64,000 nt of DNA from contig NC_015391.1 in the NCBI RefSeq assembly GCF_000195575.1, positions 1,046,501-1,110,500 on the forward strand, read 5' to 3'. Positions 30,000 through 35,454 of this stretch are shown piece after piece; the first letter of the stretch is position 1; each line of letters opens with the position of its first letter. Position numbers and translations under genes: made by a program. Below the pieces are notes generated by a model that ran no database searches, was not told where the DNA came from, and worked only from the letters and a program-made list of their open reading frames with translations. This stretch comes from Carnobacterium sp. 17-4. GTDB taxonomy: Bacteria > Bacillota > Bacilli > Lactobacillales > Carnobacteriaceae.

Positions 30000-31298
30000 G
30001 TGGAACATATTACAATTATAGAATCCAAAAATCATGTTGGAGAAGAAGTAGAGATCGGAGCTTGGGTAGCGAATAAACGTTCAAGTGGTAAGATCGCATT
30101 TTTACAATTACGTGATGGTTCTGGATTTTTTCAAGGAATCGTAGTAAAAAGTGAAGTTGAAGAAGAAGTTTTCCAATTAGCGAAATCATTGAATCAAGAA
30201 ACTTCTATTCTATTAACCGGTGTTATTCAAGAAGATGCACGTTCAAAATTCGGTTATGAAATTGCCGTGAAATCAATCAAAGTAATCGGTGAAAGCCATG
30301 ATTATCCCATTACTCCAAAAGAACATGGGACAGAATTTTTAATGGATCACCGTCATTTATGGCTACGTTCTTCAAAACAACATGCGATTATGCGTATTCG
30401 TAATGAGATTATCCGTGCTACTTATAATTTCTTCAATGAAGAAGGATTCATCAAGGTCGATCCACCAATCTTAACAGCAAATGCTGCGGAAGATTCAACA
30501 GAATTATTCCATACAGAATATTTTGATCAAGAAGCTTTCCTTTCACAAAGTGGTCAATTATATATGGAAGCAGCTGCAATGGCATTTGGGAAAGTCTTTT
30601 CTTTTGGTCCTACTTTTAGAGCAGAAAAATCGAAGACGCGTCGTCATTTAATTGAATTTTGGATGATTGAACCTGAGATGGCTTTTATGGATCATGAGCA
30701 AAGTTTAGAAGTACAAGAAAAATATGTTGCTTATTTGATTCAAAGTGTTCTTGATAATTGTGATGATGCATTAAATACATTAGAACGCGACAAAGAAGTG
30801 TTGAAAAAATACACAGAATTGCCTTATCCAAGAATTTCATATGATGATGCAGTAACCTTATTAAATGAAAATGGGTTTGACGATATTACTTGGGGAGATG
30901 ATTTTGGATCACCTCATGAAACCTTTATTGCAAATCAATACGACAAACCTGTCTTTATTTTAAATTATCCTAAAGCTATAAAAGCTTTCTATATGAAGCC
31001 ACATCCTGAAAGAGAAGATGTTGTGTTGTGTGCTGATTTAATTGCTCCTGAAGGGTATGGAGAAATAGTTGGTGGAAGTGAACGTGAAGTTGATTTCGAC
31101 GCATTATCTCAACGAATTAAAGATTTTGGTCTAAAAGAAGAAGATTACGCATGGTACATGGATTTACGTAAATACGGCAGTGTTCCTCATTCAGGATTTG
31201 GATTAGGATTAGAACGTACAGTAACATGGATCTGTGGAACAGAGCATATTCGTGAGTCTATTCCGTTCCCTCGCTTAATAAATCGTATCTACCCATAA
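30000..31298 (+). CDS. asnS: Asparaginyl-tRNA synthetase
   Basis: A class-II aminoacyl-tRNA synthetase of 432 residues. An N-terminal OB anticodon-binding domain (~10-100, [27 protein letters not shown]) precedes the catalytic core with motif 1 [15 protein letters not shown], motif 2 [20 protein letters not shown] and motif 3 [25 protein letters not shown] is typical of AsnRS. The start is GTG with AAGGAG about 9 bases upstream. The 101-bp upstream gap is too short for a T-box riboswitch. Confidence 0.97.
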
Positions 31299-31400: not shown

Positions 31401-32117
31401 ATGAATAATCACTTATTACAGAAATGGCTGAAAGCAGGAAATACGACGATATCAAATGTCTTGTTAACCCATTATAAAGATCTTGGTTTAAGTAGTGAAC
31501 AATTGATTTTAGTCTTGCAGTTAAAATCATTTATTGACGCTGGAAATGATTTTCCGGATACAGAAGTTATTTCAAAACGAATGCAAATTTCTTCTTCAGA
31601 TGTCTTTCAAATGATTCATGAATTAATCAATAAAAAATTGATCATCATTGAAACAGAAAAAAATAATGAAGGAAAAACACGTGATAGCTACCGGTTGGAT
31701 TTATTATGGGATAAACTGGCAATGGCTATTTCCCAACAAGAAAACCAACAGCGTTTTGAAAAACAGCATTTATCTGAACAAGATCTATTTCAATTATTTG
31801 AAGCGGAATTCGGTAGGCCTTTGTCTCCAATAGAAATGCAGACAATAGGGATGTGGTTGGATGAAGATCATTATGCCATTGAGCTAATTGAATTAGCGTT
31901 AAGAGAAGCTGTTTTGAATCAAGTATACAGTTTGAAATATGTAGATCGTATCTTACTGAATTGGGAAAGAAAAAATATCCGAACCAAAGATCAAGTTGAA
32001 AAAGAAGCGAGTCGTCGCAGAAAAGCAGGCACTAAAACGCAAAATTATTCAGTGTCTAAGGAACCGACTACTAAAGTGCCATTGCACAATTGGTTAAATA
32101 ATAACGAAAATCCTTAA
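31401..32117 (+). CDS. dnaD: DNA replication initiation/primosome protein DnaD
   Basis: Helps load the replicative helicase at oriC and at restarted forks in Firmicutes. The 238 residues contain the N-terminal winged-helix oligomerisation domain (~20-105, LSSEQLILVLQLKSFIDAGND, ISKRMQISSSDVFQMIHEL) and the C-terminal DnaD/DnaB2 DNA-binding domain (~125-200, LFQLFEAEFGRPLSPIEMQT, LREAVLNQVYSLKYVDRILLNW). AAGGAGG is upstream. nth follows after 14 bp; the asnS-dnaD-nth order matches Bacillus. Confidence 0.95.
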   Translation: MNNHLLQKWLKAGNTTISNVLLTHYKDLGLSSEQLILVLQLKSFIDAGNDFPDTEVISKRMQISSSDVFQMIHELINKKLIIIETEKNNEGKTRDSYRLDLLWDKLAMAISQQENQQRFEKQHLSEQDLFQLFEAEFGRPLSPIEMQTIGMWLDEDHYAIELIELALREAVLNQVYSLKYVDRILLNWERKNIRTKDQVEKEASRRRKAGTKTQNYSVSKEPTTKVPLHNWLNNNENP

Positions 32118-32131
32118 CAAGGGGTGAAAAG

Positions 32132-32770
32132 ATGCTACCTAAAACGCAAACAATTCAAATGATTGAGGCAATGGGAAATTTGTTTCCTCATGCAACTTGC
32201 GAACTTGTTCATAAAAATGCTTTTGAATTATTGATTGCTGTTATGTTAAGTGCACAGACCACAGATGTTTCTGTAAATAAAATTACACCAGAACTGTTTC
32301 GTAAATACCCTACACCGGAAGCCTTTTTAGATGCGCCTGTAGAAGACATTATGGAACAGTTAAAAACGATTGGTTTATACCGTAATAAAGCAAAATTTAT
32401 TAAAGGCTGTTGCCGTAAGTTGATTGATGAGTTTAATGGAATGGTCCCAAATAAAAGAAGCGAATTAGAATCTTTACCAGGTGTGGGTAGAAAAACAGCG
32501 AACGTTGTCCTGAGTGTGGCATTTAATCTCCCGGCGATTGCTGTGGATACACATGTAGAAAGGGTGACGAAGAGATTGGGTATCTGCCCTCCAAAAGCTA
32601 CTGTTCGTGAAGTGGAAGAGATCTTGATGCAACAACTACCAAAAGAACTTTGGAGCATTGCGCATCATAGACTAATCTTTTTTGGGCGCTATCAGTGTAC
32701 GGCAAGAAACCACGATCATGATATTTGTATTCAATTGTTGAAAGAAAATAGCCCTGCAAAAGTACAATAA
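32132..32770 (+). CDS. nth: Endonuclease III homologue with incomplete Fe-S ligand set
   Basis: A base-excision DNA glycosylase/AP lyase for oxidised pyrimidines; 212 residues, near the 211 of E. coli. The helix-hairpin-helix LESLPGVGRKTANVV carries the catalytic Lys, and AVDTHVERVTKRLG holds the catalytic Asp. The C-terminal cluster loop reads CTARNHDHDICIQLLKE. Against the canonical C-X6-C-X2-C-X5-C it has Cys, His, Cys, Glu, so two of four ligands are replaced and a normal [4Fe-4S] cluster is unlikely. GGGGTG precedes the ATG. It shares a bidirectional terminator with PBP1A. Confidence 0.93.
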   Translation: MLPKTQTIQMIEAMGNLFPHATCELVHKNAFELLIAVMLSAQTTDVSVNKITPELFRKYPTPEAFLDAPVEDIMEQLKTIGLYRNKAKFIKGCCRKLIDEFNGMVPNKRSELESLPGVGRKTANVVLSVAFNLPAIAVDTHVERVTKRLGICPPKATVREVEEILMQQLPKELWSIAHHRLIFFGRYQCTARNHDHDICIQLLKENSPAKVQ

Positions 32771-32844: not shown

Positions 32845-35454
32845 TTATTCTTCTGGAGCACTGCTACTTGATTCAGAACTACTGCTCGATTCAGAGCTTA
32901 CAGGTGGAGCACTGCTACTTGATTCAGAACTACTGCTCGATTCAGAACTTTCAGGTGGAGCGCTGCTGCTCGATTCAGAACTACTGCTTGATTCAGAACT
33001 TTCGCTGCTTTCTGCCTCAGGTTCTTCCTCAGGTTCCTCCTCTTCAGGTTCCTCTTCTTTAGGTGGGATAAGAACACTCGTTGAAGCCGCAGGGCCTGTT
33101 TTATCGCCAGCCTGAACCGCAAGTGTAATAGAGATTTCACCTTCAGGAGGATTTTGTAAAATATAAGAAAGATCATTAGTCGAATACGATTCAGATCCTA
33201 TTGTTAACAGATAGGATATATCTTTTTCGGAATAAGCATTCCATTTAATCGATAGAGCATCTGCTTCTTCGTCATAGGTAGCAGCTAAGCCTTCCGGTGC
33301 ATTTAATTCGATTTCTTCACTTTCATCTTCTTCACTTTCTTCTTCAGAGCTGTCAACGGCTACTGCAGTTGGCTCAGTTCCTTTAACAAACAATTCTGTA
33401 ACAATTTTGTCTGAAGGAGTTTTAGGTCCAGCAAGTTTTGCAGGCATTGAACCTTTTTCAACGGCTACTTCAACAACTGAACTTGGTTTTTCCCAGTCGC
33501 TAGATTCAACTGACTCTGAAACATATGACATCAAAGCTTGATAGATTTGCTGAGGTAATAAACGTTCACTGCCTTTATTATCGATTGAGTCAAAGTAATT
33601 ATCTTTTCCGACCCAAACAGATAATGCATAATTTGTTGTGTAACCTGTATACCATTTATCAGGCACGCCATTTTCTTGGATACCATGTTCAATTTTTTCA
33701 TCTGGAGTATAGTTTGTCGTACCGGTTTTCCCAGCTTGAGGAATACCGTTCAATCCTACTCTAGAAGAGTTATTACTAGCGACATCTTTTAACATATCTG
33801 TGATCATGTAAGCTGTTGATTCTTCCATAGCCTTATTCGATTCAGGTTTCAAACTGATTTCTTCGCCATCGTCTAAAATGATTTTTGAAACCGTGTAAGG
33901 TTCAGTGTACGTTCCACCGTTTGCGAACGCAGCATAGGCCGCCGATAAATCAACTGGAGTAATATCTCCAGTAAAAGCATTTGACTCAACTAAAGTCTTT
34001 TCTTTAGTATTTAAAGTGGAGGTATCAATGCCAATATTTGTTAAAAACTCATTTGCTTTCTCTCTAGGGACGTCATTGTAAATCTTAGTAGTAGGCACGT
34101 TACGTGAATCAACTAGAGCTCTGCGCATACTAATTTGACCTTCATAGTTATTGTCGTAGTTGTTGATAGGAGTCCCATCTTTAAATGTATAGGGTTCATC
34201 TACTACTTGTTCATAAGTAGAGTAGTTTAAATACTCTATAGCGGGACCATAAGCTGACAAAGGTTTGATATTCGATCCAACACTTCGTTTTAACTCTGTA
34301 GCATAATTGGTTCCTAATTGAACTTCTTGATCACGTGCGCCACCTAGAGCTTTTAATTGCCCAGTGTTGACATCGACTAAAGAAATACCGGTTTGAATGT
34401 CTTCATCTTCAATTTGGACGTATTCATCGGAATTCACAATATCGTAAAGACGTTGTTGTGCATCCATATCCAAATTCGTGTGTATGGTCAATCCAGAGGT
34501 GTAAGGATCTAAATTGGTTTTTCTCTCAACTTCAGCAAGAACTTCTTTGACATATGGGTCGAACACAAGGTTATTTGTTTCTTCTCCAGAATGGTCGATT
34601 AAACCTTCTGAAACATCAACTGATTTAGCTTCTTGGGCTTCTGCAGCCGTAATAGCTTCATTTTCCACCATCATATCTAATACTAAGTTGCGTCGTTTTG
34701 TGGCATCGTCTGGATTGGTAAGTGGATTATATGCATTTGGAGCTTGTGGCATTCCAGCAAGTAATGCTGCTTCTGGCAAAGTCAATTCAGCCAACGGTTT
34801 ACCAAAATAATAATCACTAGCTGTTCCCATTCCATATTGATTGTCGGACATATAGACCTTATTGATATAAAAAGTTAAAATTTGTTCTTTTGAATACTTT
34901 TGTTCTAACTGCAAGGATAACCAAGCTTCTTGTGCTTTTCGTTTTAACGTTTGATCTTCCGAGCCTGTTGAGAAAACAGAAAGCTTGATCAACTGTTGTG
35001 TAATCGTGCTTCCACCTTCTGAAGCGAAACCATCCGTAATGTTCGCTACCACTGCTCCTGCAATACGGATAGGATCAATACCGATATGGGTATAAAAACG
35101 TTGATCCTCAATAGCAACGATTGCATCTTTTAGCACTTGGGGGACATCATTTTCTGATACCAGTTCGCGACTTTCTCCTCCAAGAGTTAAAAATTCATTT
35201 CCTTCTGAATCTAGTAATGTTGAGGAAACCGTATCGGTTAAACTGTTTTCTGTGACATCAGGTGCAGAGGATACGTAATAAGCAAATAATCCCATACCGC
35301 CAATTACCACTGCTGCTATTAAGGCTAGAATTCCAATAAGAATTTTTTTCCAAAGGGGAGAAGAGGATTTTTTGCTCTTTTTACCTTTTTTTGTATGTTT
35401 TGATTTTTGTGCTTGTTTCTTTGACACGCGTGACATTTCTTTTTTTTCTGACAT
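32845..35454 (-). CDS. ponA: Bifunctional class A penicillin-binding protein 1A
   Basis: Polymerises and cross-links peptidoglycan. The 869 residues comprise a Lys-rich cytoplasmic tail, one membrane helix (~37-61), a GT51 glycosyltransferase with catalytic Glu116 in AIEDQRFYTH and EGGSTITQQL, then a transpeptidase with SxxK in VGSNIKPL, SRN in VDSRNVPT and KTG in AGKTGTTN. A fibronectin-III-like segment (~715-800) and a Glu-Pro then Ser-Glu-rich tail end the protein. The tail is encoded by 51-bp tandem repeats. AAGGAG supports the ATG. recU lies just upstream in the same orientation, as in the Bacillus recU-ponA operon. Confidence 0.96.
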   Translation of the reverse strand: MSEKKEMSRVSKKQAQKSKHTKKGKKSKKSSSPLWKKILIGILALIAAVVIGGMGLFAYYVSSAPDVTENSLTDTVSSTLLDSEGNEFLTLGGESRELVSENDVPQVLKDAIVAIEDQRFYTHIGIDPIRIAGAVVANITDGFASEGGSTITQQLIKLSVFSTGSEDQTLKRKAQEAWLSLQLEQKYSKEQILTFYINKVYMSDNQYGMGTASDYYFGKPLAELTLPEAALLAGMPQAPNAYNPLTNPDDATKRRNLVLDMMVENEAITAAEAQEAKSVDVSEGLIDHSGEETNNLVFDPYVKEVLAEVERKTNLDPYTSGLTIHTNLDMDAQQRLYDIVNSDEYVQIEDEDIQTGISLVDVNTGQLKALGGARDQEVQLGTNYATELKRSVGSNIKPLSAYGPAIEYLNYSTYEQVVDEPYTFKDGTPINNYDNNYEGQISMRRALVDSRNVPTTKIYNDVPREKANEFLTNIGIDTSTLNTKEKTLVESNAFTGDITPVDLSAAYAAFANGGTYTEPYTVSKIILDDGEEISLKPESNKAMEESTAYMITDMLKDVASNNSSRVGLNGIPQAGKTGTTNYTPDEKIEHGIQENGVPDKWYTGYTTNYALSVWVGKDNYFDSIDNKGSERLLPQQIYQALMSYVSESVESSDWEKPSSVVEVAVEKGSMPAKLAGPKTPSDKIVTELFVKGTEPTAVAVDSSEEESEEDESEEIELNAPEGLAATYDEEADALSIKWNAYSEKDISYLLTIGSESYSTNDLSYILQNPPEGEISITLAVQAGDKTGPAASTSVLIPPKEEEPEEEEPEEEPEAESSESSESSSSSESSSSAPPESSESSSSSESSSSAPPVSSESSSSSESSSSAPEE
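32855..33003 (-). repeat. Three tandem 51-bp repeats in the PBP1A tail
   Basis: Units at 32855-32905 and 32906-32956 differ at few positions, and a third partial, more diverged unit runs to about 33003. Each encodes 17 residues (APP then a Ser/Glu run). Within each unit a shorter GATTCAGAAC-containing repeat of about 24 bases recurs. Confidence 0.88.

Follow-up and report, generated by a model that had tools for sequence, protein, structure and literature searches.

The endonuclease III gene (nth) of Carnobacterium sp. 17-4, situated in the window (i.e., the whole stretch of 64,000 nucleotides analysed here), encodes a protein in which the iron-sulphur loop, judging from sequence, is replaced and not merely broken, with an invariant Cys-His-His-Cys set (CHHC in the following) in place of the four cysteines of a [4Fe-4S] cluster. 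The reading that we favour, with a probability of roughly 0.6, is that CHHC endonucleases III carry a mononuclear Zn(Cys2His2) site instead of the cluster and are catalytically competent. In such a protein, cluster ligands 1 and 3 would have stayed cysteines (Cys189 and Cys199), ligand 2 would have become His196, ligand 4 would have been abandoned, and a former loop proline five residues past ligand 1 would have turned into an additional ligand, His194. One Zn2+, the usual ion for Cys2His2 sites, would then be bound by C189-x4-H194-x-H196-x2-C199 and would pin the DNA-contacting C-terminal loop onto the helical core, needing neither iron nor redox activity, while Lys121 and Asp139 would perform ordinary base excision. 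This is what we infer about the metal, its identity and structural role, and the activity of these enzymes. To our knowledge, there is no zinc motif that matches this spacing exactly.

That the open reading frame encodes Nth follows from its score on the equivalog model TIGR01083 (263.3 bits; cut-off, 211.7); it also contains an HhH-GPD domain (PF00730, 99.5 bits), and its score on the mutY model TIGR01084 (65.5 bits; cut-off, 286.5) places it outside the MutY family. The relative from Carnobacterium jeotgali (L005), another member of the Carnobacteriaceae, is 84% identical, and the window protein is an orthologue of the [4Fe-4S] endonucleases III of PDB entries 1orn and 2abk, which we take to be those of Geobacillus stearothermophilus and Escherichia coli, respectively. 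It has the same catalytic residues (the role of Lys121 and Asp139 is assumed from E. coli Nth) and the same fold, the overall fold being secure from the comparison of its AlphaFold model with 1orn (TMq of 0.91). The difference lies in the C-terminus, GRYQ-C-TARNHD-H-DI-C-IQLLK-E, where slots 2 and 4 of the cluster are replaced and His194 is gained. The protein retains the C-X6-C-X2-C-X5-C spacing but falls outside the four-Cys pattern itself, since its slots hold C189, H196, C199 and E205, exactly the Cys-His-Cys-Glu series that a preliminary description of this DNA had read there. The catalytic Lys and Asp, intact according to the same description, are indeed present as K121 and D139. That ligand substitution has cost the enzyme its [4Fe-4S] cluster, a possibility also raised there, is now strongly supported. 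PF10576, the model of the endonuclease III Fe-S motif, finds no match in the window protein, and the Cys-His-His-Cys set is carried by 52 surveyed Nth proteins, that of the window included. The coordinates of the gene, of the codons discussed and of the conserved neighbours are collected in Table 1.

Table 1. Features of the nth locus (positions within the window)
Feature	Position	Strand	Evidence
asnS, asparagine--tRNA ligase, conserved neighbour	30000..31298	+	NF003037, 629.8 bits (cut-off 414); synteny
DnaD-domain protein, conserved upstream neighbour	31401..32117	+	TIGR01446, 85.5 bits (cut-off 24.95); synteny
nth, endonuclease III (P0001), 212 aa, without the [4Fe-4S] ligand set	32132..32770	+	TIGR01083; PF10576 unmatched; model vs 1orn, TMq 0.91
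Catalytic Lys121 codon	32492..32494	+	Invariant, 52/52 CHHC rows
Catalytic Asp139 codon	32546..32548	+	Invariant, 52/52 CHHC rows
Cys189 codon, former cluster ligand 1 retained; proposed metal ligand 1	32696..32698	+	
His194 codon, new here where four-Cys relatives have Pro; candidate metal ligand 2	32711..32713	+	
His196 codon, at slot 2 of the cluster, where four-Cys relatives have Cys; candidate metal ligand 3	32717..32719	+	
Cys199 codon, former cluster ligand 3 retained; proposed metal ligand 4	32726..32728	+	
Glu205 codon, cluster slot 4, variable	32744..32746	+	E in 22/40 first copies and 9/12 others
PBP1A-family penicillin-binding protein, conserved downstream neighbour	32845..35454	-	TIGR02074, 526.4 bits (cut-off 508.75); synteny

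Nth proteins were collected by homology, among the matches listed, from 18 genomes of the window's family (f1) and from a sample of 295 genomes of the order, with some extra loci added. The alignment of Nth from the family and its neighbours, which the preliminary description had proposed as a check, thereby comprises 44 first copies from f1 and f6 among the matches listed: 40 are CHHC, 4 (from the f1 genera g2 and g5) have the four cysteines, and none is intermediate. Only these 44 homology-found copies provide a fair test of invariance, since the motif that defines the CHHC class itself fixes the residues. The 40 CHHC first copies share the pattern C-x2-[RK]-x-H-[DN]-H-x2-C and are invariant at 60 of 212 positions, C189, H194, H196 and C199 included; C189 and C199 are their only invariant cysteines, and most other tail positions vary. 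Another 12 CHHC proteins, situated on a distant branch and belonging to a motif-defined class, keep the same four residues without exception, bringing the surveyed carriers of the set to 52 with that of the window counted. Position 194 is His in all 52, as opposed to Pro in 35 out of 35 four-Cys proteins. The Nth loci of five genomes that fail the search motif were left out of the class counts (G194; G204, with four Cys; G208, with two Cys; and G142 and G270, with drifted loops).

At the DNA level, the codons for C189, H194, H196 and C199 show synonymous variation, both Cys and both His codons being used in the 51 motif matches listed; as this sample was found by motif, it demonstrates silent change but not the absence of replacement. 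A reversed-motif control gave no match across the 295 genomes of the order. Chance or a sequencing error, the latter foreseen by the preliminary description as a possible refutation, are ruled out by this control, by the synonymous variation and by the recurrence of the set in 52 Nth proteins. Pseudogene decay of the window gene was likewise discarded in view of its open frame, the invariance of the catalytic residues and the recurrence of the substitutions across families.

The conserved positions also bear on which residues could act as ligands. It is very improbable that a cluster or a metal is held in the old geometry by Cys189, His196, Cys199 and Glu205, the ligand set that the preliminary description had put forward. 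The slot spacing is retained in the window protein and Glu is the commonest residue at position 205 (31/52), but Q, L, A, S, D, V and K also occur there. Because of this variability Glu205 is unlikely to be a ligand, and the old set would leave unexplained the invariant H194, five residues after C189, which that description had overlooked. By contrast, C189, H194, H196 and C199 are a conserved foursome of Cys and His close together in sequence, as expected of a Zn(Cys2His2) site.

What the loss of the cofactor alone might look like can be judged from other Nth proteins with incomplete cluster sets. The loops of the f9 genera g14, g41 and g47 and of the f4 genus g74 have drifted, with no candidate ligands and with even the first Cys lost. 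Part of f3 (probably Streptococcus, by our inference) has a two-Cys Nth in which C-x6-C is followed by YPQLY. The window genome has two paralogues, L002 (1369-2010) and L003 (1354-2010), that resemble one another; both are Nth-like, end in a C-x6-C-x2-Y-PQLY tail and are relatives of the Nth of that part of f3. These two-Cys proteins resemble the window Nth in being Nth-like with an incomplete cluster set; unlike CHHC Nth, they have no His pair and form a separate branch of the tree. Cofactor loss alone would thus look like drift, whereas two invariant Cys and two invariant His would look like a retained ligand set and, given that the loops of other cluster-free Nth drift, their invariance points to a retained function. 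The preliminary description had left open whether the fold holds with no cluster or binds a different metal or cluster; a different metal is the better answer, while bare tolerance of cluster loss fits the drifted f9 and f4 g74 lineages and not the CHHC lineage. In addition, other Cys/His-rich loops occur in the Nth of the f4 genus g37 (C-x6-H-x-C-x2-C in L090 and C-x7-H-C-x-C-C in L134), and a second metal replacement is possible there.

The occurrence, within the same order, of cluster-free loops lacking any plausible ligand also lends some weight to a reading with no metal at all, in which the loop folds cofactor-free and C189, H194, H196 and C199 are kept for contact with the DNA backbone, for packing or for a C189-C199 disulphide. 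The invariant His and Cys could indeed serve in DNA contact or packing. In the same direction, the MutY of the window genome is cluster-free, the structure of a clusterless MutYX is in the PDB (8uuc, in excerpt) and AlphaFold gives no confident local structure at the loop. Against this, none of the 40 first copies departs from the four metal-type residues, in a tail that varies at most of its other positions, and the drifted loops elsewhere lose even their first Cys, so that we consider a metal-free loop unlikely, albeit the strongest of the competing readings.

As for the model itself, that of P0001 (based on an alignment of 23 rows with one other CHHC protein) contains no confident metal site, and the confidence in the ligand loop is low, with block means of 61 and 61 at residues 191-210; a four-Cys Vagococcus orthologue, modelled with the same rows as a control, reached 93 and 92 at the same residues. 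The window protein is predicted to have helices at 171-188 and 196-206. In this prediction C189 directly follows the first helix, H194 falls within the loop, and the second helix carries both H196 and C199, separated by one turn, an arrangement in which the four residues could meet on one ion.

Regarding its distribution, the CHHC motif, in its DNA form, has matches in 50 of the 295 genomes of the order. A match in genome G214 (f7) was discounted from all counts, since its contig differs from that of the listed Nth of this genome, and the DNA pattern misses the Nth of G008, with Lys for Arg, yet this protein is CHHC. CHHC Nth are found in 50 genomes of the order, distributed among f1 (14), f6 (26), f2 (4, from genus g52) and f4 (6). 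Beyond the order, 271 genomes of the class gave three motif matches, none of them in an Nth frame. In a tree of 130 Nth proteins built after removing the ligand loop, CHHC proteins fall on three branches, namely f1, f6 and a distant third one composed of the f2 and f4 members, one f6 first copy (G181) and both f6 second copies. Two f6 loci of genus g34, L186 and L187, represent genomes with two CHHC Nth each, one on the main f6 branch and the other on the third. On the Nth tree the CHHC state has to change three times, two or more of these changes being forced by strong branches, and on the AddB tree it changes six times, five or more being forced; neither tree establishes a single origin.

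The gene neighbourhood is informative in this respect. The four-Cys genes of Carnobacteriaceae and Vagococcus lie at a locus homologous to that of the window nth. In f1, taking both classes together, the nth loci have the DnaD neighbour in 18/18 cases, AsnS in 17/18 and PBP1A in 16/18, and AsnS and DnaD accompany nth in the 15 f6 loci checked. The presence of CHHC and four-Cys genes at one and the same asnS-dnaD-nth locus in f1 indicates that the Fe-S loop of this family was rebuilt in place, a conclusion drawn from the comparison of sequences and loci. AsnS, DnaD and PBP1A are all absent from the eight third-branch loci checked (G124, G275, G277, G192, G199, G048, G292 and G180), and this third branch looks like a separate copy, perhaps horizontally moved. 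The PBP1A-family protein of the window ends in a Ser/Glu/Pro-rich repeat tail (SSESSSSSESSSSAPP, positions 32860-33010).

Other Fe-S enzymes of the same genomes have changed too. PF00730 detects four HhH-GPD proteins in the window genome (this Nth, its two paralogues and MutY) and none of the four contains the full cluster motif, which discards among them a backup Nth copy with the full Cys set. The MutY (L004, 847-2061; G000:C2, near 1,444,000) is clusterless (CTPKNYHPELSP...FN) and has no obvious substitute ligands. Among the 18 f1 genomes, MutY has its four cysteines in the 4 with a four-Cys Nth and has lost them in the 14 with a CHHC Nth, and the canonical motif is missing from MutY in 41 of the 45 genomes examined, a count that includes the f6 genome G022, which gave no Nth match. 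In the f2 genus g52, whose genomes also have a CHHC Nth, MutY (L238-L241) displays a shifted S...C-x7-C-x2-C-x-H instead of the usual four Cys. The AddB of the window genome (L256, G000:C2:1216698-1220309) has lost all four Fe-S cysteines and, within f1, the cluster cysteines of AddB are found only in genera g2 and g5, being absent from the same 14 CHHC genomes. The motif used, which we take from B. subtilis AddB, combines a C-x2-C-x5-C close to the end of the protein with a further Cys upstream of it; over 62 genomes, its C-x2-C-x5-C part is present in 0/32 with CHHC, 17/24 with four-Cys and 0/6 with other Nth. Outside f1, hence, the link between Nth and AddB is loose, and the seven four-Cys genomes in which the AddB motif is missing raise the possibility that the loss of the cluster comes first in AddB and later in Nth. 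A test of independent pairs for the Nth and AddB clusters was not significant (about two pairs in the same direction, none in the opposite one and five with no difference; median p of 0.5), and few evolutionary events underlie the joint loss in Nth, MutY and AddB.

SufB scores over its cut-off in the 18 f1 genomes, which rules out an organism devoid of Fe-S assembly, and each of the 14 CHHC genomes has 1-2 radical-SAM matches, against 5-6 in each of the other 4. With SufB kept, the MutY and AddB clusters absent and fewer radical-SAM proteins, the use of Fe-S appears to shrink; the parallel changes in MutY, in AddB and among several radical-SAM proteins are consistent with a broad withdrawal from it. 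These data also have to be considered for a reading in which iron is retained at the site, either as a [2Fe-2S] cluster with two Cys and two His or as mononuclear iron. Rieske clusters do have two Cys and two His as ligands, and SufB is present in all 18 genomes; nonetheless, the Rieske motif is C-x-H ... C-x2-H, an order from which C-x4-H-x-H-x2-C departs, and the MutY and AddB of the same genomes have abandoned their clusters. Iron at this site is, in our opinion, improbable, more so than a loop with no metal.

Several known systems share some features with the window Nth. Clusterless MutYs have been described (PMC11078426, in excerpt, citing a title from FEBS J 2016). These, a kind to which the MutY of the window genome belongs, are, as far as the excerpts mentioned above describe them, HhH-GPD glycosylases lacking the full set of cluster cysteines, like the window Nth, although of a different family. 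The pairs of zinc and zincless fingers in Fpg/Nei and the zinc linchpin of MUTYH (PMC9266487, in excerpt) illustrate how glycosylases can acquire or shed a structural metal site and still perform base excision, as suggested here; Fpg/Nei, however, have another fold, and the linchpin, according to the same excerpt, belongs to another part of the protein (the linker), unlike the loop of the window Nth. For EndoIII2 of D. radiodurans, an excerpt of PMC9268735 reports that expression succeeded for just one of the Cys-to-Ser mutants, whose yield and stability were reduced. In the open-access library searched, which leaves most subscription papers outside, none of the matches listed describes an Nth carrying a substitute metal site or a joint loss of the Nth, MutY and AddB clusters.

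The role of the [4Fe-4S] cluster in endonuclease III is disputed between structure, DNA binding and charge signalling, and its removal in the laboratory tends to ruin the protein. CHHC Nth would offer a natural experiment on the function of the cluster: since close orthologues at one locus have either the four cysteines or the invariant Cys2His2 set, its role becomes testable with natural enzymes. On a broader scale, we suggest tentatively, at somewhat less than even odds, that an evolved exchange of Fe-S for zinc in a DNA glycosylase took place within a joint removal of the Nth, MutY and AddB clusters in Carnobacteriaceae and their relatives, the cluster-free Nth having also been passed between families. 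If this is true and the clusters signal to one another via DNA, the loss of a single one would relax the rest; with iron or peroxide behind the losses, all the clusters would go together, and the CHHC lineage could separate both causes. With the MutY and AddB clusters absent and SufB kept, the selective reason for having clusters in repair enzymes may thus be tested inside one bacterial family.
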